DNA of 34,427 nt from a virus (IMGVR_UViG_3300021961_000313:1-34427), one strand, 5' to 3'; counted from the stretch's first letter, positions 671 through 34,231 are shown. Made by a program: numbers and translations. The notes: generated from the sequence alone by a model not told the origin.

Positions 671-1336
671 ATGAAATTAATAGCAGAATATAACGATTTT
701 TCATTAGATACTTCAATTATCACCGAGGCAAATGAAGCTGGTGATACCGTAAAGAAATACGTGATTGAAGGAATATTTGCACAAGCAAATGAAAAGAATA
801 GAAATGGACGTATATATCCAAAAGCAATTATGGAAAAAGCTGTGGAAAAATATGTTCGTGAACAAGTAAGTCAGAAGAGAGCCGTCGGTGAGTTGAATCA
901 TCCCGAAGGGCCCACTGTCAACTTGGATAAAGTTTCACATCTTATTACCGATCTTAAGTTTGAAGGTAATAATGTGATGGGAAAGGCCCAAATCCTTGAT
1001 ACACCAAATGGTAAAATTGTTAAAGGTTTACTTGATGGTGGAGTAAGATTGGGTGTTTCAACTAGAGGTATGGGAAGTCTGAAGCAAGATAGAGGCGCAC
1101 AGATTGTTCAAGATGATTATATTTTGAATACTGTAGACATCGTTCAAGATCCAAGTGCACCAAGTGCATTTGTAAATGGTATTATGGAAGGAGTGGATTG
1201 GATCTGGAATAATGGCGTTATTGAAGCTAAAGAAATTGAAAGAATGGAGACAGAAATTCGTTCAGCAACTCGCGTAAATTCTTATGAAGTACAAATTCGT
1301 GAGTTTAAGAATTTCCTCTCGTTATTAAAACAATAA
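671..1336 (+). CDS. 21: Prohead core protease gp21 (T4-like)
   Basis: This is the serine protease that assembles in the prohead core and cleaves scaffold, capsid and internal proteins after [I/L]xE before DNA packaging. Visible features are the catalytic-type His77 in GELNHPEG and Ser130 in GVSTRG, the arrangement found in T4 gp21, plus the family block YVIEGIFAQAN...NRNGRIYPK near residues 30-51. Length is 221 residues, close to T4 gp21 (about 212). ITE at residues 17-19 followed by Ala looks like a self-processing site. The ATG directly follows the upstream stop, so translation is probably coupled. It is followed by scaffold and capsid genes, the canonical 21-22-23 order. Very secure. Confidence 0.96.
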   Translation: MKLIAEYNDFSLDTSIITEANEAGDTVKKYVIEGIFAQANEKNRNGRIYPKAIMEKAVEKYVREQVSQKRAVGELNHPEGPTVNLDKVSHLITDLKFEGNNVMGKAQILDTPNGKIVKGLLDGGVRLGVSTRGMGSLKQDRGAQIVQDDYILNTVDIVQDPSAPSAFVNGIMEGVDWIWNNGVIEAKEIERMETEIRSATRVNSYEVQIREFKNFLSLLKQ

Positions 1337-1352
1337 TTAGGAACTATTAAAT

Positions 1353-2393
1353 ATGGATAATCAAAACATTGAAGTAGAAGTTTCCGATTTCGAGAGCGAA
1401 GTTCTAGAAGAAGAAACATCTATTGATGAAGCCACTGTGGCCAAAGTGAAAGCAGTAGATCCAAAAGATGCTGAAGCTGCATCCGTTGACGCTACCGACG
1501 ATGCTGGCGATGTAACTGATAAAGCCCCTGAAAATAAGCCAACTGCTAAAACTAAAGCTGTTGCTCTTAATGCTATGTATCAAAAACTCAAAGCAATGAA
1601 CAAACCTGAGTTAATGGCTGCATACGAAAAAATGATGGGCGAAGGCGAACACGAAGACGATGATGAAGAAGAAATGGAAGAATCATTCGACCATTCTGCT
1701 GAATTGAAACAACTCGTTGATGATGAAGCAACATTGTCAGAAGAGTTTAAGACAAAATCTGCTGTAATTTTCGAAACTGCTTTAAAATCTAAACTAAAAA
1801 CAGAAATCGATCGTCTTGAAGAGAGTTATAAAGAAGAACTTGCTGAAGAAGTTGCTACTTTTAAAGCACAACTTGTTGAAAAGGTTGATTCTTATCTCAA
1901 TTATGTAGTAGATACTTACATGACTGAGAATAAACTCGAGATTACTAATGGTCTACGTACAGAAATTGCCGAAGAATTCATGACAAAACTTAAACAAGTT
2001 TTTGTTGAATCTTATATTGATGTACCTGATTCAAAAGTTGATCTTGTTGATGATATGGCTGCGCAAATAACAGAACTTGAAAAAACTGTGAATAAACAAA
2101 TCGAACAAATGATGGAAATGCATGGTAAAGTTTCCGAATTTGAACGAAATGATGTAATTCGCGAGCATACTCAAGGTCTTGCACAATCAGAAATCGAAAA
2201 ATTTAATTCTCTTATTGAACATATCGATTTTGAAGACACCGATTCTTTTTCTGCTAAACTTAAAACAATTAAAGAATCATATTTCCCTAAAGAAAAAGTA
2301 ATTGCTGAAGAAATTGAAACCCATTTTGGTGAAGTTGTTGAGACTTCAAATAACCCTATGGATCAATATGTTCAAAAATTACGTCGTAATTAA
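1353..2393 (+). CDS. 22: Prohead core scaffolding protein gp22
   Basis: This is the main internal scaffold of the T4-like prohead, degraded by gp21 during maturation. The assignment rests on position between gp21 and gp23, on composition (very acidic and Lys-rich, coiled-coil-like from about residue 125 to 290, an Asp/Glu run around residues 98-110) and on possible gp21 sites such as LSE. At 346 residues it is longer than T4 gp22 (about 269), mainly because of an Ala/Asp/Lys-rich, low-complexity N-terminal third. Scaffold sequences diverge quickly, so synteny carries most of the weight. An AGGA-like ribosome binding site lies about 10 nt before the ATG. Confidence 0.9.
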   Translation: MDNQNIEVEVSDFESEVLEEETSIDEATVAKVKAVDPKDAEAASVDATDDAGDVTDKAPENKPTAKTKAVALNAMYQKLKAMNKPELMAAYEKMMGEGEHEDDDEEEMEESFDHSAELKQLVDDEATLSEEFKTKSAVIFETALKSKLKTEIDRLEESYKEELAEEVATFKAQLVEKVDSYLNYVVDTYMTENKLEITNGLRTEIAEEFMTKLKQVFVESYIDVPDSKVDLVDDMAAQITELEKTVNKQIEQMMEMHGKVSEFERNDVIREHTQGLAQSEIEKFNSLIEHIDFEDTDSFSAKLKTIKESYFPKEKVIAEEIETHFGEVVETSNNPMDQYVQKLRRN

Positions 2394-2415: not shown

Positions 2416-3738
2416 ATGACTGAATTAGTAAATGTCACATCTCTAGTTGAAAAATGGGCTCCCGTTCTCAACGAAGAAACCGCTGGTAAGATCAAAGATC
2501 AAACCCGTATGAAAGCTGTTGCACATATTCTTGAAAACCAAGAACGTGCTAACAGAGAACAAGCAATGCTTAACGAAACTGTAGCTAACACTACATCTTC
2601 TGCTGCTAACTGGGACCCTGTCCTTATCGCTCTTGCTCGTCGTGCAATGCCTAATCTGATGGCATTTGATGTTGCATCAGTACAACCAATGAGCGGACCA
2701 ACTGGTCTTATCTTTGCTATGCGTTCACGTTACGACGCTGGTACAACTGGTTCAACTGAAGCTCTCTTCAACGAAGCAAATACACAGCACACAGGTGACT
2801 CATCTGGTACTCAAGCTCAAGATCCGTCAGGTCTATCTGGTCTTACTGACTCAAACAGTGACTCAAGCTTAGACAACGATCGTACAGGTCCTGACTTTGC
2901 TGGTGGTATGCCAACAGCTGATGGTGAAGCACTTGGTTCAAACACTGGTGGTTCTGTTTTCTCAGAAATGGGCTTCACAATCCAAAGAGCAACAGTAACA
3001 GCTAAAACACGTGCTCTAAAAGCTGAGTATAGTTTGGAACTGGCACAAGACCTGAAAGCAATCCATGGTCTTGACGCTGAACAAGAACTTGCTAATATCC
3101 TATCAACAGAGATTCTTGCTGAGATTGACCGCGAAACAATTCGTACAATCAACTCACAAGCGAAAACTGGTGCTGTTACAGGTAATACAGCAATTGGCGG
3201 TATCTTTAACCTATCAACAGATGCTGACGGTCGTTGGTCTGTTGAGAAATTTAAAGGTCTTATCGTTCAAGTCGAGCGTGAAGCTAACCAAATTGCAAAA
3301 GATACACGTCGTGGTAAAGGTAACTGGATCATCTGTTCATCAGACGTTGCTGCTGCTCTTTCTGCATCAGGTATGCTTGATTATGCACCTGCAATGTCAA
3401 CAGCTCTTGAAGTTGACGACACAGGAAATACTTTTGCTGGTGTACTTAATGGTCGCACAAAAGTGTATATCGACCCATATGCAACTGTTGATTACGTAAC
3501 TGTTGGATATAAAGGTACAAATAGCTACGATGCTGGTCTCTTCTATTGCCCATACGTTCCACTCACAATGGTTCGTGCTGTTGGTGAAAATGACTTCCAA
3601 CCTAAAGTTGGATTCAAGACTCGTTACGGTATGGCTTCTAACCCATTCGTTGGAACATCTCCTGCTAACGGTCTTGCAACTGCTAAGACTAATGGCTATT
3701 TTAGAGTGTTCAGAGTCGATAATATCCTACAAGCTTAA
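2416..3738 (+). CDS. 23: Major capsid protein gp23
   Basis: This is the major head subunit (HK97 fold) of T4-like phages. It has 440 residues with family blocks such as NWDPVLIALARRAMPNLMAFD (start near residue 65), VQPMSGPTGLIFAMRSRY, and the C-terminal region with NPF near residue 414. The N-terminal segment up to about residue 54 is a likely delta domain: MLNE at 51-54 followed by Thr fits the gp21 rule, as in T4 gp23 maturation. Codon choice is visibly more C/G-ending than in flanking genes (for example GCT, CGT, ATC, AAC), as expected for the most abundant virion protein. No TATAAATA box lies directly upstream, so it is probably read from an upstream head-operon promoter. A strong terminator follows. 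Confidence 0.98.
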   Translation: MTELVNVTSLVEKWAPVLNEETAGKIKDQTRMKAVAHILENQERANREQAMLNETVANTTSSAANWDPVLIALARRAMPNLMAFDVASVQPMSGPTGLIFAMRSRYDAGTTGSTEALFNEANTQHTGDSSGTQAQDPSGLSGLTDSNSDSSLDNDRTGPDFAGGMPTADGEALGSNTGGSVFSEMGFTIQRATVTAKTRALKAEYSLELAQDLKAIHGLDAEQELANILSTEILAEIDRETIRTINSQAKTGAVTGNTAIGGIFNLSTDADGRWSVEKFKGLIVQVEREANQIAKDTRRGKGNWIICSSDVAAALSASGMLDYAPAMSTALEVDDTGNTFAGVLNGRTKVYIDPYATVDYVTVGYKGTNSYDAGLFYCPYVPLTMVRAVGENDFQPKVGFKTRYGMASNPFVGTSPANGLATAKTNGYFRVFRVDNILQA

Positions 3739-3818: not shown

Positions 3819-3826
3819 TATAAATA
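3819..3826 (+). promoter_or_regulatory. T4-type late promoter TATAAATA
   Basis: An exact TATAAATA box, the -10-like element recognised in T4 by RNA polymerase with gp55, gp33 and gp45. It stands 29 nt before the ATG of the tail-tube-like gene and just after the gp23 terminator. gp55 and gp45 are both encoded in this window. Confidence 0.8.
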
Positions 3827-3855: not shown

Positions 3856-4344
3856 ATGGCACTTACTACAAATAAAAATTACTTATCTCCAACTCAATTT
3901 CAAATAGTAATTGAAAGAAAAAATTATCCAAATATTAGTTTTTTTGCTCAGTCAGTTTCACATCCTAGTGTCAGTGTTGCTCCTGCAGAAGTTCCATTTA
4001 GAAGAGCAAATGTGTATATGCCTGGAGATAAAATTAATTTTGGGCAATTAAGTATTACGGCATTAATTGATGAAGATATGAATGATTATGTTGAAATGTT
4101 TAATTGGTTGACTGGCAATTTAGAAAAACATATATCTCCAAATGAGTCAACAGATACAGTTATTTCAAGCACAGCTGATATTACTATTAATGTTTTAAAT
4201 TCAAAGAATAATAAAACAAAAAGTATTCGTTATACATCAGCATTTCCTATTGATATATCAGGAATTGATTTTACATCTGTGACTGAAGAACAATTTTTAT
4301 CTTTTGGTGTTACATTCCAATTTGACCAATTTGTACTAGTATAG
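3856..4344 (+). CDS. Tail-tube-like virion protein
   Basis: A 162-residue protein whose size and layout recall the T4 gp19 / tube-initiator family (about 163 residues). After a short N-terminus comes a strand block SPTQFQIVIER, then 'sVsvaPaeVPFRR..vymPGDKINFG..sItalIDEDMNDY..mfnWL', then a C-terminal strand ending in FDQFVLV. The block of 'PGD' followed by strand, acidic 'DEDMNDY' and a helix is typical of tube-fold phage proteins. It sits behind its own late promoter and before uvsY, so virion function is likely. It could be the tube subunit itself or a related tube/baseplate protein. I infer this from fold-like pattern rather than close identity. Confidence 0.5.
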   Translation: MALTTNKNYLSPTQFQIVIERKNYPNISFFAQSVSHPSVSVAPAEVPFRRANVYMPGDKINFGQLSITALIDEDMNDYVEMFNWLTGNLEKHISPNESTDTVISSTADITINVLNSKNNKTKSIRYTSAFPIDISGIDFTSVTEEQFLSFGVTFQFDQFVLV

Positions 4345-12688: not shown

Positions 12689-13078
12689 ATGAATCCCTTT
12701 GACTATCTCAATTCAATCAATATGACCAAAGAAGATATTATGGTCGATGAAGATGCTGAAAAAGGTTATAACTCATATATCATCAATCGATCACTATCTT
12801 ACTTTACCGATACGATCTTTCTTGCAAATGAAATGAATTTATATCATAATCTTGATAACCGTTTAAAATACGACTTTTTTATAAATAGTATAAGAAAAAG
12901 AAAACGGTTTAGTAAATTTATGAAAGCCGACATTTTTTCTAAGATTGATGTGATTAAAAGGTATTATAACTATTCTATTGATAAAGCAAGACAAGTTGTA
13001 AATTTATTCACTGATGAACAAATAGAAGAATTGAAGCATAGGATGCGCGAAGGTGGAACAAGATCTACAACAAAATAA
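12689..13078 (+). CDS. 62: Clamp loader small subunit gp62
   Basis: gp62 is the single non-ATPase subunit of the T4-type clamp loader. The 129-residue product resembles the short gp62 of marine T4-like phages: NPFDYLNSINMTKEDIM, then AEKGYNSYIINRSLSYFTDTIFLANEMN, then 'RKRKRFSKFMK'. T4 gp62 is longer (187). I start at 12689 rather than the in-frame 12671 because AAGGTGG stands about 8 nt upstream of 12689 and the family begins MxNPFDY. The start at 12671 would lie inside gp44 without a binding site. Confidence 0.88.
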   Translation: MNPFDYLNSINMTKEDIMVDEDAEKGYNSYIINRSLSYFTDTIFLANEMNLYHNLDNRLKYDFFINSIRKRKRFSKFMKADIFSKIDVIKRYYNYSIDKARQVVNLFTDEQIEELKHRMREGGTRSTTK

Positions 13079-29652: not shown

Positions 29653-29660
29653 TATAAATA
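29653..29660 (+). promoter_or_regulatory. T4-type late promoter TATAAATA
   Basis: An exact TATAAATA box in the 54-nt gap after the sugar dehydrogenase, 33 nt before the next ATG. It heads the run of five genes to 34231 and the partial gene beyond. Confidence 0.82.
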
Positions 29661-29693: not shown

Positions 29694-31028
29694 ATGCTTT
29701 CACTTAAAAGATTTATTTACGAGGAAAATAGTGTAGACACACTATTATATAAACTCCATAGTTATGGATATGATAAAGTAAATATGTTACAAAAAAATAC
29801 TGTAGCAGTTTATGTTCCGAAATCTGATCGTGAAATAGTATTACAGGATTTATCAACAAAATTAAATACTCCTATTTCAATGCCTATAAGTGGTTTAAAA
29901 TCAAGTATTGGTGCTCTTGAAATAAATAATGGTCCTTTTTCGGGATTAAAGTTATTTGTAAAACCAGATGCAAGCAAAAATTTAAATACAGATCAACAAG
30001 AATCTCTTCATGCTTATTATATTGCAACTATATTTAATAAACCAAATACAGAATTTAGTATAGATGATGTTATTCAATATGGTCAAAAAGATGTAAGAAG
30101 TAAATATTCTGCAAAAGAATTAATAGAAATTGCAAGTGCTGGTTGGATAAAATCAGCAATATTAATTGCTCAAACAATATATTCTAAATATGCTGGACAG
30201 AAGTATTTGGTTGTTCAAAGATCAAAATCAAAATTTGTTGACAATATTTCTCAAGCTTTTAAAATATTAAATAATAAAAATGCAGTAAGTATTAATCAAG
30301 ATAAATGGAATCCTGCAGATATATGGTGTGTTGATCCAAGTCTTATCTCATTTGATTTTTCTAAATTTTCGACTTTAGATGAACTTAATGATTGGATATT
30401 AGAAAAATTTAATACTAAAGATTTATTGCCAATTTCATTAAAACAAACAAAGAAAAATCCAAAGTTTGAAATTAAAAATCTTGAAAGAAAAAATAAAACT
30501 ATTATTTTTAGCAATTATGATTTAGGAAAAGTATCATATACTAATTCACTCGATATGAATGTTTATTATAATAAAGATAATATTATACAATTTAGAAATT
30601 TTGGTCGTCCAGAAAATATTGCTGGAGAAATAAGCGGTAAAGGTGCTGCAGCAGGTAAAATAGGATTTTCTATTATTGATCAATTTTTTAAAAAATATAC
30701 AAAGAGATATATTAAAATATTACATTCAAAAGATATTGCAAAGCAATATACAATAAATCCTGATAAATTTTTATCTGAATTATACAATCAGGCAATTAAA
30801 TTAGATTCGAGATTAAAGTCAACCTCTCTTTCTGATTTCATTAAAGAAATAAAGTCAAAAAAGAATGAACTAACATATATAATATCTAAATATCAAGTAA
30901 CTCAATTGGCACAAATGCTAGATAGTATGAATAATATGACTAAGAATAAACTCATTGGTGATATTATTTCTTATGCAGGATCTGAATTAGATTCAAGTTC
31001 GGTGTATATTAAGGTATCTGAAGGATAA
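29694..31028 (+). CDS. Putative packaged head protein, possible PD-(D/E)XK nuclease-like
   Basis: 444 residues beginning MLSLKRFIYE followed by Glu, a match to the T4 capsid-targeting leader (Met, aromatic/hydrophobic at 4 and 7, Ile8, Glu10). The body is Lys- and Asn-rich. In the centre, QDKWNPADIW (202-211) followed about 36 residues later by LPISLKQT (245-252) fits the Asp...[S/E]xK core of PD-(D/E)XK nucleases, and a 'DKWxPADI..ISLK' arrangement is familiar from large hypothetical virus proteins. I could not place further domains. A late promoter lies directly upstream. Nuclease activity is a hypothesis; head location is inferred from the leader. Confidence 0.7.
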   Translation: MLSLKRFIYEENSVDTLLYKLHSYGYDKVNMLQKNTVAVYVPKSDREIVLQDLSTKLNTPISMPISGLKSSIGALEINNGPFSGLKLFVKPDASKNLNTDQQESLHAYYIATIFNKPNTEFSIDDVIQYGQKDVRSKYSAKELIEIASAGWIKSAILIAQTIYSKYAGQKYLVVQRSKSKFVDNISQAFKILNNKNAVSINQDKWNPADIWCVDPSLISFDFSKFSTLDELNDWILEKFNTKDLLPISLKQTKKNPKFEIKNLERKNKTIIFSNYDLGKVSYTNSLDMNVYYNKDNIIQFRNFGRPENIAGEISGKGAAAGKIGFSIIDQFFKKYTKRYIKILHSKDIAKQYTINPDKFLSELYNQAIKLDSRLKSTSLSDFIKEIKSKKNELTYIISKYQVTQLAQMLDSMNNMTKNKLIGDIISYAGSELDSSSVYIKVSEG

Positions 31029-31030
31029 TG

Positions 31031-32251
31031 ATGCAAAAATTTAGACAATATATAACTGAACAAAAGAATACCCATATGACCCATATGGAAGATTCTGTGA
31101 TTTATGGTGGAGTGAACGGAGCACGTCAAGCAATTAATGGATTACGTAGCTTAAGAGATATGCTATCTGGCGTTCATGATGGATTTATATCTGTTAAATG
31201 GGATGGTGCACCTGCTATTTTTGCTGGTAATGATCCTCGTGATGGAAAGTTTTTTGTTGCTAAAAAAGGCATTTTTAATAAAGATCCAAAGGTATATAAA
31301 ACAGATAGTGATGTTGATGCTGATACGTCTGGTGATCTTGCAATTAAATTAAAACAAGCACTTAAATATTTGCCCAAATTAGGTATTAAAGGTGTATTAC
31401 AAGGCGATTTCTTATATTCAAGATCAGATATTAAAAAAGATAAAATTGATGGGCAAGAATATATAACATTCCATCCAAATACTATTGTTTATGCTGTACC
31501 TATTAATACACGAATGGCTAATGAAATATTAAAATCTCAAATTGGTATTGTTTGGCATACATCCTATAGTGGTAATACATTTGAAACTATGAAGGCAAAA
31601 TTTGGTGCGGATGTTTCTAATTTAGCAAAATCAAGTGATGTCTGGTCGCAAGATGCTGTTATTAAAGATCTAACGAATGCTACATTATCTAAAGAAGAAA
31701 CAAATAATATTAATAATAAACTTTCTGAAATTGGTGTTCTATTCAATAAAATATCAGGTAATGTTCTTCGTCAAATTGAACAAAATAGAGAATTGGCTCA
31801 AACAATTGAAACATTTAATAATACGTATGTTCGTAAAGGTGAATACATAATTGATACGACAAAACATACAAATGATTTGATTAAATATATTAAAGATAAA
31901 TTTCAAAAAGAAGTTGATAAACGTTCAACACAAAAAGGTAAAGATATACAAATAACAAAACGTGATGAATTTCTATCATTCTTTAGTCCTGAAAATAAAA
32001 AGAATATAAAACTTATTTTTGATCTACAAAAATTAATTGTTGAAGCAAAATTAATACTTTTAAATAAATTACATGAATTAAATAATATTGGTACCTTTAT
32101 TAAAACAAATAATGGATATAAAGTAACTGGTCAAGAAGGATATGTAGCAATTGATCAATTAACTGGTGGAGCACTTAAGATTGTTGATCGATTGGAGTTT
32201 TCTCATAATAACTTTTCGCCAGATGTACTTAAAGGATGGCAAAAAGTATGA
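31031..32251 (+). CDS. Nucleic-acid-ligase-like nucleotidyltransferase, putative packaged protein
   Basis: 406 residues. Covalent-nucleotidyltransferase features: VKWDGAPAIFAG with the KxDG motif at Lys56-Gly59, FFVAKKGIF (74-82), VLQGDFLYS (122-130, motif III-like), EGYVAIDQL and LKIVDR near the C-terminus (motif IV/V-like). Homologues are widespread in marine T4-like phages as hypothetical proteins. The start is MQKFRQYITE then Gln, a capsid-targeting-like leader. Of the two adjacent ATGs (31028, 31031) I prefer the second: AAGGA at 31021 is then 5 nt away, and the leader has exactly the T4 register. It may seal DNA or RNA; substrate unknown. Confidence 0.75.
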   Translation: MQKFRQYITEQKNTHMTHMEDSVIYGGVNGARQAINGLRSLRDMLSGVHDGFISVKWDGAPAIFAGNDPRDGKFFVAKKGIFNKDPKVYKTDSDVDADTSGDLAIKLKQALKYLPKLGIKGVLQGDFLYSRSDIKKDKIDGQEYITFHPNTIVYAVPINTRMANEILKSQIGIVWHTSYSGNTFETMKAKFGADVSNLAKSSDVWSQDAVIKDLTNATLSKEETNNINNKLSEIGVLFNKISGNVLRQIEQNRELAQTIETFNNTYVRKGEYIIDTTKHTNDLIKYIKDKFQKEVDKRSTQKGKDIQITKRDEFLSFFSPENKKNIKLIFDLQKLIVEAKLILLNKLHELNNIGTFIKTNNGYKVTGQEGYVAIDQLTGGALKIVDRLEFSHNNFSPDVLKGWQKV

Positions 32252-33393
32252 AATTTGAAATAAAATCATTTAGTAATTATCTTACTGAAGAATCAAATAT
32301 GATGTTCTTTACCTTTGGTAGGTTAAATCCTCCTACCATTGGTCATGGCTTATTGCTTGATAAATTAAAAAAACTTTCAGGTTCAAATCCATATAGAATA
32401 TACCTTTCACATTCAGAAGATAAAAAGAAAAATCCGCTTTCTTATAGTGATAAAATAAAATTTGCACGTAAAATATTTCCAAAGCACGCAAGAAATATTA
32501 TTTTTGATAATACAGGTAAAATAGTAAACGTATTTAAAATTGCTGATGCTCTTTATTCAGAAGGCTTTACATCAATTGCAATGGTTGTTGGATCAGATCG
32601 AGTTCGTGAATTTGATATATTATTAAATAAATATAATGGTGAAAATCGTACAGATGGTTTTTATAAGTTTGAGGTGATTAAAGTACTTTCTGCTGGCGAA
32701 AGAGATCCTGATGCAGAAGGCGTATCTGGAATGTCAGCTTCAAAAATGAGACAAGCTGCAATTGATAATGATTTTATTTCATTTAATAACGGAATACCTG
32801 ATACATTATCAAATGATGAAACAAAAAATCTTTTTAATCTCATTCGTAAAGGAATGGGACTTAAAGAACGTATTGAATTTCGTAATCATTTAGAATTAAA
32901 AAAGGTATCTGACATAAGAGAGAAATACATATTAGGTGATATCTATCAAATTGGTGATCGAGTTGAAGTGAAAGAAACAAATGAGCTTGGCACTATAACG
33001 AAATGTGGTACAAACTATTTAATTATCCTCCAGGACAATGGTGAAAGTACAACAAAGTGGCTGCACGATGTCAAAGAAGTAAAAGAAGCTAAAAAACGTG
33101 AAATGCCACTTTCTAAATACACAAAAAAATATCATCAGATGTATGGTGAAGACTCAAATCTTATAGAAGCAGATGTTAAGAAGGCTCTTCAAACTAAATC
33201 AAAAGAAACTGGCATTTCATATAATATATTAAAACAAGTGTTTGATCGTGGTTATGGCGCATGGAAATCATCACATCGTCCAGGTACTAATCCAACTCAA
33301 TGGGGATTAGCACGTGTGAATTCATTTGCCACTGGTGGCACTACCCAAAAAACAGCAGATGCTGATCTTTGGAAAAAACATAAAGGCGGTTAA
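32248..33393 (+). CDS. NMN-adenylyltransferase-like protein with DUF5824-like C-terminus
   Basis: 381 residues in parts. A leader MKFEIKSFSNYLTE then Glu (capsid-targeting-like) is followed by a nucleotidyltransferase domain (about 17-200) with FGRLNPPTIGH (23-33), VVGSDRVREF (113-122) and GMSASKMRQAA (161-171), the HxGH and ISxTKxR-type motifs of NMNAT-like enzymes. A small beta domain (about 228-275, YQIGDRVEV...GTI) comes next. The C-terminal domain (about 310-381: GISYNILKQVFDRGYGAWKS, HRPGTNPTQWGLARVNSF, ADLWKKHK) looks like DUF5824. LIE at 305-307 followed by Ala, just before it, is a further possible gp21 site. Start at 32248: AAAGGA lies 11 nt upstream; 32236 has none. Confidence 0.8.
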   Translation: MKFEIKSFSNYLTEESNMMFFTFGRLNPPTIGHGLLLDKLKKLSGSNPYRIYLSHSEDKKKNPLSYSDKIKFARKIFPKHARNIIFDNTGKIVNVFKIADALYSEGFTSIAMVVGSDRVREFDILLNKYNGENRTDGFYKFEVIKVLSAGERDPDAEGVSGMSASKMRQAAIDNDFISFNNGIPDTLSNDETKNLFNLIRKGMGLKERIEFRNHLELKKVSDIREKYILGDIYQIGDRVEVKETNELGTITKCGTNYLIILQDNGESTTKWLHDVKEVKEAKKREMPLSKYTKKYHQMYGEDSNLIEADVKKALQTKSKETGISYNILKQVFDRGYGAWKSSHRPGTNPTQWGLARVNSFATGGTTQKTADADLWKKHKGG

Positions 33394-33857
33394 TGAAGAA
33401 ATTTAAAACATTCATAACTGAAGCAAAAGCACCACGCTGGAAAAAGGCGGGTCCTAATGGTGAAATTGAAGCTACCATTGGTGGTGATAAGTGGAAGATC
33501 GAAAAAGCTTTAGACTTTAATGAGCGTCATAGAGGCGAATTTCACGTTTACCAATGGGAGAGAGGCGACTGGCAGTGGGCAACTACTTTATATGGTAAAG
33601 CCAATGCCAAAGATTGGATTATGAGCATAATGTCAGAAAAGAAATCAGATGGATCAAGATCTGAACCTTGGGAAGATGGATTTAAACGTCGTGTTGTAAA
33701 GACTACAAAGCCTGAGCATAAAGAACAAGGTTATAATTGGAGAATCAAAGGTAAAGACCGTGATGAAATCTCCATTAAACTGTATAAGAAAAAACCTGAT
33801 TTTAATGAATTCAAAAAACAAATGAAACGTGTCGCAGGACACGAGTTTGGTGGATAA
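33393..33857 (+). CDS. Small putative packaged protein with capsid-targeting leader
   Basis: 154 residues starting MKKFKTFITE then Ala-Lys, the closest match here to the T4 leader MKTYQEFIAE-Ala. After the predicted cleavage the protein is basic, Trp- and Lys-rich: WKKAGPNGEIEATIGGDKWKI, FHVYQWERGDWQWATTLYG, 'RGEF', and a C-terminus ending RVAGHEFGG. The Trp-rich beta pattern looks like a small single domain that I cannot name. DNA binding is possible from charge. Starts on the last base of the previous stop. Confidence 0.75.
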   Translation: MKKFKTFITEAKAPRWKKAGPNGEIEATIGGDKWKIEKALDFNERHRGEFHVYQWERGDWQWATTLYGKANAKDWIMSIMSEKKSDGSRSEPWEDGFKRRVVKTTKPEHKEQGYNWRIKGKDRDEISIKLYKKKPDFNEFKKQMKRVAGHEFGG

Positions 33858-34231
33858 TGCATAGTTTTCTAAAACATATTAACGAAAGATTTGGCGAATA
33901 CGAAGGTAAACAAGTACCACTCGAACAGCCAATGATATATCCAGTAAAAGAAGAACCTGAATTAAATTCTCCAAAGAGATCTTCAGGTGATAAAAAATAT
34001 GTTGTATACGTTAAAAATCCTGAAACAGGTAACGTAAAAAAGATAGAATTTGGTGATGAAAAAGGTGGCCTTACAGCAAAAATAAACGATCGAGAGGCTG
34101 CAAAGAATTTTTCGTCTCGACATAATTGTGATACAAAAAAAGATAAAATGACTCCAGGATATTGGTCATGTCGTCTTCCACAATATGCTAAAGAACTTGG
34201 ACTTAAAGGTGGAGGCTCTTACTTCTGGTAG
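33857..34231 (+). CDS. Small virion-type protein with capsid-targeting leader and conserved C-terminal domain
   Basis: 124 residues beginning MHSFLKHINE then Arg, again with Phe4, Ile8 and Glu10. A Pro/Glu-rich linker (about 15-45) leads to a domain KYVVYVKNPETGNVKKIEFGD (47-67), FSSRHNCD (84-91) and PGYWSCRLPQYAKELGL. This compact 'V.NP.TGNVKK..FGD ... RHNC ... YWSC' domain is common in proteins of marine tailed phages, alone or fused to head proteins. The two Cys (about 90 and 105) could bind a metal. Coupled to the previous gene by a one-base overlap. Confidence 0.78.
   Translation: MHSFLKHINERFGEYEGKQVPLEQPMIYPVKEEPELNSPKRSSGDKKYVVYVKNPETGNVKKIEFGDEKGGLTAKINDREAAKNFSSRHNCDTKKDKMTPGYWSCRLPQYAKELGLKGGGSYFW

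Follow-up and report, generated by a model that had tools for sequence, protein, structure and literature searches.

The viral DNA IMGVR_UViG_3300021961_000313 (34,427 nucleotides, one strand; referred to here as the window, that is, the whole stretch that was analysed) comes from a marine T4-like phage, of which it is a 34-kb piece, and 45 genes were scored in it. Five consecutive genes at its right end (29694-34231, genes 1 to 5) encode proteins that begin with a leader like the capsid-targeting sequence (CTS) of the T4 internal proteins. Packaging of the five products into the phage head by means of this leader is the best explanation of the data and very probably the correct one. It is built on direct observation of the leader, its pattern of conservation, its modularity, a late promoter, gp21, and an association between leader and virion in related phages. 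The same packaging had been claimed in the sequence-only reading of this DNA, and the claim is well supported: leader, late promoter and gp21 fit the T4 rule, a leader profile picks out virion proteins in Synechococcus phage S-CREM2, and tagged homologues of gene 3 are present in three virion proteomes.

A CTS-like leader on five adjacent genes

The pattern M-x2-[F/L]-x2-[F/Y/H]-[I/L]-x-E is found at the start of genes 1 to 5 and of none of the remaining 40 genes of the window, against 0.03 matches expected by composition in 45 genes; five adjacent matches are far beyond chance. With the predicted cut marked by a slash, the N-termini are MLSLKRFIYE/EN, M(M)QKFRQYITE/QK, MKFEIKSFSNYLTE/ES, MKKFKTFITE/AK and MHSFLKHINE/RF for genes 1 to 5, and all of them are present where the sequence-only reading had placed them. 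Gene 2 has two adjacent ATG codons, at 31028 and 31031, the second of which yields the ten-residue leader. The ATG of gene 3 at 32248 overlaps the stop codon of gene 2 as ATGA, so that the leader with its four-residue extension is the natural reading there. Gene 1 has Leu at position 4, and gene 3 has it at position 8, so that the final Glu alone is strictly invariant across the five leaders. The residue-by-residue pattern first described for them therefore holds at the Glu, but Ile at position 8 is not universal and position 4 can be Leu.

The leader resembles the CTS of T4 IPI, IPII and IPIII in its length of ten residues, in the hydrophobic or aromatic residues at positions 4 and 7, and in the [I/L]xE at positions 8-10; leaders counted in the T4 class have 10-19 residues and end in [I/L]xE. 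It had been stated that IPI-III all start with MKTYQEFI[A/K]E. IPII and IPIII do start with MKTYQEFIAE, but IPI starts with MKTFKEFTSTTTPVSTITE; because this leader is longer, the pattern misses IPI in the T4 positive control, where it recovers IPII, IPIII and gp61.1. The last of these (NC_000866, 18966-19130; L397) is an uncharacterised protein of 54 residues that starts with MKTFKEFIKE and looks like another tagged T4 protein.

Further features in common with the T4 internal proteins are the presence of gp21 in the genome, the late genes, the basic cargo and the unrelated bodies behind a common leader. The predicted mature products of all five leader genes have isoelectric points (pI) of 9.1-9.7, compared with a pI of at least 9.0 in 8 of the 40 other window genes (p=0.0008). 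The T4 cargo consists of small restriction-enzyme inhibitors, IPI-III being directed against GmrSD variants (PMC12373910). Unlike this small cargo, three of the five window proteins weigh 42-49 kDa, and the five include at least one or two that are enzyme-like. Also unlike T4, the leader genes of the window appear as one operon, in a Kyanoviridae-type phage.

Gene order and predicted late expression

The window runs from gp21, gp22 and gp23 through replication genes to the right end with the five leader genes (Table 1). Its nearest annotated relatives are phage C48C1 and the Melnitz methylophages, with Pelagibacter phage HTVC008M further off, all under Kyanoviridae. The gp21 reported earlier at position 671 is confirmed by its profile matches and, by analogy with T4, would be expected to cleave after [IL]xE. 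On the same analogy, gp22 is the likely docking partner for the leaders.

A T4-type late promoter octamer, TATAAATA, precedes gene 1. The window contains three copies of the octamer, fewer than the 9.1 expected, and two of the three lie 37-41 nucleotides 5' of a start codon. The copy before gene 1 is conserved in contig L006, which is 81% identical overall to the window. Among related loci, the octamer is found at -75 to -15 in 39 of 254 leader open reading frames (ORFs) compared with 189 of 2579 others, about twice as frequently (p=3e-5). Genes 2-5 abut or overlap the preceding gene through ATGA or TAATG junctions. The best explanation, read at the level of sequence, is that genes 1 to 5 make up a late operon. 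They had been called late genes without evidence; the octamer at 29653-29660, found also in L006, upholds that designation on sequence grounds. The other two octamers of the window are located at 3819-3826, 37 nucleotides 5' of the tail-tube gene start at 3856, and at 12880, where the copy is intragenic.

Table 1. Features of the window discussed in the text
Feature	Position	Strand	Evidence or remark
gp21 prohead core protease, Peptidase S77	671-1336	+	Pfam PF03420 E=3e-42, phrog_207
gp22 scaffold	1353-2393	+	PF25623 E=1e-60
gp23 major capsid protein	2416-3738	+	PF07068 E=1e-143
T4-type late promoter octamer TATAAATA	29653-29660	+	41 nucleotides upstream of gene 1; kept in L005 and L006
Gene 1: leader MLSLKRFIYE and 434-residue basic protein	29694-31028	+	phrog_1462; 20 homologues in this place also have leaders
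Gene 2: leader MQKFRQYITE (start 31031) and DUF6267	31028-32251	+	Pfam E=1e-104
Gene 3: leader MKFEIKSFSNYLTE, NMNAT/cytidylyltransferase-like domain and C-terminal DUF5824	32248-33393	+	Pfam, PHROGs
Gene 4: leader MKKFKTFITE and 144-residue basic protein	33393-33857	+	body 80-92% identical in relatives
Gene 5: leader MHSFLKHINE and 114-residue basic protein	33857-34231	+	phrog_7595

Directly 5' of gp21 lies an ORF (95-670) in what we take to be the place of gp67/gp68 in T4. One of its domains recurs in an ORF within the L012 cargo cluster (88% over residues 32-83) and in the Melnitz cluster, and it may be a core protein domain that has shifted into the cargo operon.

Conservation and exchange of the leader

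Among 109 distinct N-termini of DUF6267 proteins, chosen by the protein body only, the conserved positions are F4 (81%), Y/F7 (76%), L/I/V8 (89%) and E10 (77%), with positions 2, 3, 5, 6 and 9 more variable. The fully conserved E10 in a 32-sequence alignment of gene 2 is an artefact of sequence selection, the unselected set giving the 77%. Substitutions in the T4 IPIII leader assign targeting mainly to residues 4 and 7, and processing to residues 8 and 10 (PMC9026906), and the constrained positions of the DUF6267 leaders are those implicated by this mutational work.

In 293 sources with 4,879 ORFs, the leader was found in 398 ORFs and the reversed motif in 3; as sampling was centred on leader genes, these counts give no unbiased rate. 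A permuted motif has residue classes in common with the leader and, not being an independent control, was disregarded. The bodies behind the leader fall into 47 sequence families, some of them single-member and possibly due to chance, and whole genomes carry 0-6 leader ORFs. Profile matches among the other leader families include Zeta toxin, HD_4, PAP2, DnaJ, S-adenosylmethionine (SAM) lyase and protein kinase.

In several cases, matching leaders stand on unrelated bodies. Gene 4 of L005/L247, a contig ~97% identical to the window, starts with the leader MQKFRQYITE, whose 30 nucleotides match the gene 2 leader of the same contig exactly, although an assembly error at the repeat is possible in such a metagenomic contig. 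In L006, an unrelated ORF has the MKKFKTF leader in near-identical DNA, and gene 4 itself starts with MKSFSVFITE. The other leaders on gene 4 bodies in relatives are MQKFRQYITE, MKSFSVFITE and MLTFGEYITE. Families 5 and 10 agree at 29 of 30 nucleotides of the leader and at 12 of 12 just upstream, with dissimilar bodies. gp21 is present in all ten phages checked. Four of these are jumbo phages with NMNAT homologues that have no leader; the absence of the leader there despite the S77 protease marks the tag as an add-on and not as part of the enzyme. Judged from these sequence comparisons, the leader behaves as an exchangeable module.

Other arrangements were noted in the sampled loci. L084:231-7750 contains a row of genes with near-identical MKTF/MKSF leaders and unrelated bodies, including a DnaJ-domain protein. 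An HD_4 protein of the SpoT/MESH1 type with the leader MESFKQYISE (L093:2845-3408) is a possible injected alarmone hydrolase. In L005:5168-6170, an inserted ORF (MKTFFNIREAF...) splits gene 4, and the downstream half starts with the leader-like MLTFLEFAEG.

Leader proteins in the virions of related phages

The virion proteome of S-CREM2 comprises 52 detected proteins (PMC10665884, Table 3). Five of the six leader proteins of this phage are among them, compared with 52 of 219 coding sequences (CDS) overall (p=0.003): gp6 (SAM hydrolase), gp13, gp14 (kinase), gp136 and gp154 (cytidylyltransferase). The sixth, gp175, is a leader-bearing ORF of 55 residues that was undetected in the virion. A leader profile, trained on DUF6267 N-termini of other phages only to avoid tuning, ranks the same six proteins on top, and six of its seven top scorers are virion proteins (p=0.0008). 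None of 876 decamers starting at internal Met residues reaches the scores of the best five leaders. A further virion-detected protein, gp12 (L193:7704-10313), is annotated as Cas9-like; a short N-terminal extension precedes its leader-like sequence RFASFMAE, and a Pfam search with the protein gave no match.

Homologues of gene 3 provide a second line of evidence. In S-SM1, the cytidylyltransferase is the sole CDS of 234 with an in-register leader, and it is listed among the virion proteins (PMC3037559). The NMNAT of S-SCSM1 was detected in its virion (PMC9602691). With S-CREM2, this makes three of three virion-detected gene 3 homologues with the leader, it being noted that the detected sets of S-SM1 and S-SCSM1 are known in part. 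Within that limit, seven of nine leader proteins pooled over these phages were detected, compared with 19% of all CDS (p=2e-4), or p=0.003 when the orthologous NMNATs are counted once; the gene total of S-SCSM1 is approximate in both tests. The cytidylyltransferase of S-PM2 has no leader and was undetected; several core structural proteins were likewise missed in that study.

Cargo of the five genes

Gene 3 belongs, by profile and motif alike, to the NMNAT/cytidylyltransferase-like proteins: PF01467 is matched above the cut-off, together with phrog_395 and phrog_3041, and GRLNPPTIGH fits the nucleotide-binding motif GRxNPPTxGH. For gene 2, whose homologues carry the leader in 95 of 134 distinct N-regions, a KWDG motif is invariant across 32 homologues. 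In structural re-alignment of the predicted core, the top match is RNA editing ligase 1 (Z 7.0, 113 residues, 3.2 Å), followed by RNA ligases. RNA and DNA ligases lead the structural matches, and with Z <8 counted as suggestive only, the model suggests a ligase-like nucleotidyltransferase domain. Gene 1 contains WNPADIW (205) and ISLK (247), reminiscent of PD-(D/E)XK nucleases. Its best structural match is the very weak one to HinP1I (Z 2.8), and no other fold is suggested; at the level of motifs, the protein is possibly nuclease-like. No Foldseek match at E<=0.001 was obtained for gene 1 or gene 2, and sequence searches of genes 1-3 against solved structures gave no relevant match, solved ligases included for gene 2. 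Homologues of gene 5 carry the leader core in 38 of 118 distinct N-regions. Of the cargo labels in the sequence-only reading, NMNAT-like holds for gene 3 by sequence, ligase-like is supported for gene 2 by KWDG and the ligase matches, and nuclease-like applies to gene 1 at motif level only. It is a guess that the five proteins counter a host restriction enzyme in the manner of IPI, as that reading further proposed. The leader-bearing SAM lyase in the S-CREM2 virion fits a counter-restriction role.

Alternative explanations

Several observations weigh against packaging with processing in the T4 manner. The window phage is known here from sequence alone, and the virion evidence comes from other phages. 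HTVC008M, a relative that has gp21, carries no leader in the strict form, only degenerate ones. The S-SCSM1 leader protein SSCSM1_30 (MKTFKQFMSE) has no virion label. The detection test is built on few proteins, and the cytidylyltransferases in it are orthologues. A depletion of internal [LI]xE sites was looked for in the cargo proteins and not seen (11 sites, 11.5 expected). Many homologues of genes 3 and 5 retain F4 and the aromatic residue at position 7 without [IL] at position 8.

This last point bears on an alternative that we consider unlikely, in which the proteins are packaged yet mostly remain uncleaved or are cut elsewhere, [I/L]xE being only partly functional. Homologues such as MKSFKEYNEE and MKKFTEWKHE would suit it, as would the finding in T4 that Asp at position 10 permits targeting without processing. 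However, [IL]xE is retained in all five window leaders and in most DUF6267 leaders.

Slightly less likely again is that the leader directs the proteins to the prohead core, where they serve the core or assembly, or which they leave before maturation, and that none is an injected effector. T4 IPIII influences head assembly too, and the ORF beside gp21 has its domain in common with a cargo-cluster ORF. Against this, the cargo consists of enzymes from unrelated families (SAM lyase, kinase, NMNAT-like, HD, Zeta-toxin-like), and leader proteins are present in mature S-CREM2 virions.

It is very improbable that the leader is unrelated to packaging, for example a feature of translation initiation or stability, and that virion detection reflects contamination by abundant late proteins. 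The S-CREM2 authors do point out that hits may be lysate carry-over (PMC10665884), and both they and the S-SCSM1 authors regard such enzymes as possibly virion-carried and possibly contaminants (PMC10665884, PMC9602691). However, the constraint acts on amino acids and keeps the register known from T4; virion detection in an independent phage, S-CREM2, is predicted by the leader; and the leader is present on some and missing from other, otherwise alike NMNAT domains. Chance resemblance, for which the shortness of the pattern might speak, is rejected by the five-in-a-row window counts and by the reversed-motif control, the latter in loci picked around leader genes.

Proposed mechanism and significance

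Taking packaging through the leader as the preferred explanation, we propose the following course by analogy with T4. Late in infection, leader residues 4 and 7 would dock each protein onto the prohead core, and gp21 would then cleave behind the Glu of [I/L]xE, leaving the mature enzymes in the head alongside the DNA. They would enter the host with it at infection, so that tagged phages probably deliver a ready-made enzyme set. As a guess, the cargo may protect or repair nucleic acid and the pool of nicotinamide adenine dinucleotide during the first minutes of infection.

The mechanism itself is already known in T-even phages; what is new is the multi-protein late operon in marine phages, the exchange of leaders and the support from published proteomes. 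The enzymes found in S-CREM2, S-SCSM1 and S-SM1 virions (NMNAT/cytidylyltransferase, SAM hydrolase, kinase), detected by mass spectrometry in purified particles, are homologous to the window proteins or similarly tagged. Unlike the published accounts of those enzymes, the leader supplies a mechanism for their inclusion: the publications consulted offer none and do not mention the leader, and no publication linking the two was found in a literature search that did not include key subscription papers. Polyvalent and MuF-fused effectors (PMC5512222) are likewise packaged in the head and thought to be active at the start of infection. They travel fused to structural proteins or to large multidomain ones, whereas each window protein has its own ten-residue tag, predicted to be removable.

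We give an even chance to a broader proposal, that marine T4-like phages use an interchangeable packaging code in which a leader cassette of ~30 nucleotides is joined by recombination to many unrelated late genes and a varying enzyme set is thereby preloaded in the head and delivered before phage gene expression. Under such a code, the set would comprise nuclease-, ligase- and NMNAT-like proteins, SAM lyase, kinase, HD-domain alarmone-hydrolase-like and Zeta-toxin-like proteins, and DnaJ. If true, it would account for the enzymes reported in cyanophage virions. The leader gives a mechanism for the NMNAT-like, SAM-hydrolase and kinase proteins of cyanophage particles, so far regarded as possible contaminants, and the ten-residue rule would allow the proteins injected by marine T4-like phages to be predicted from the genome only. 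It also marks dozens of uncharacterised families in abundant ocean phages as likely to act against host defences in the first minutes of infection.

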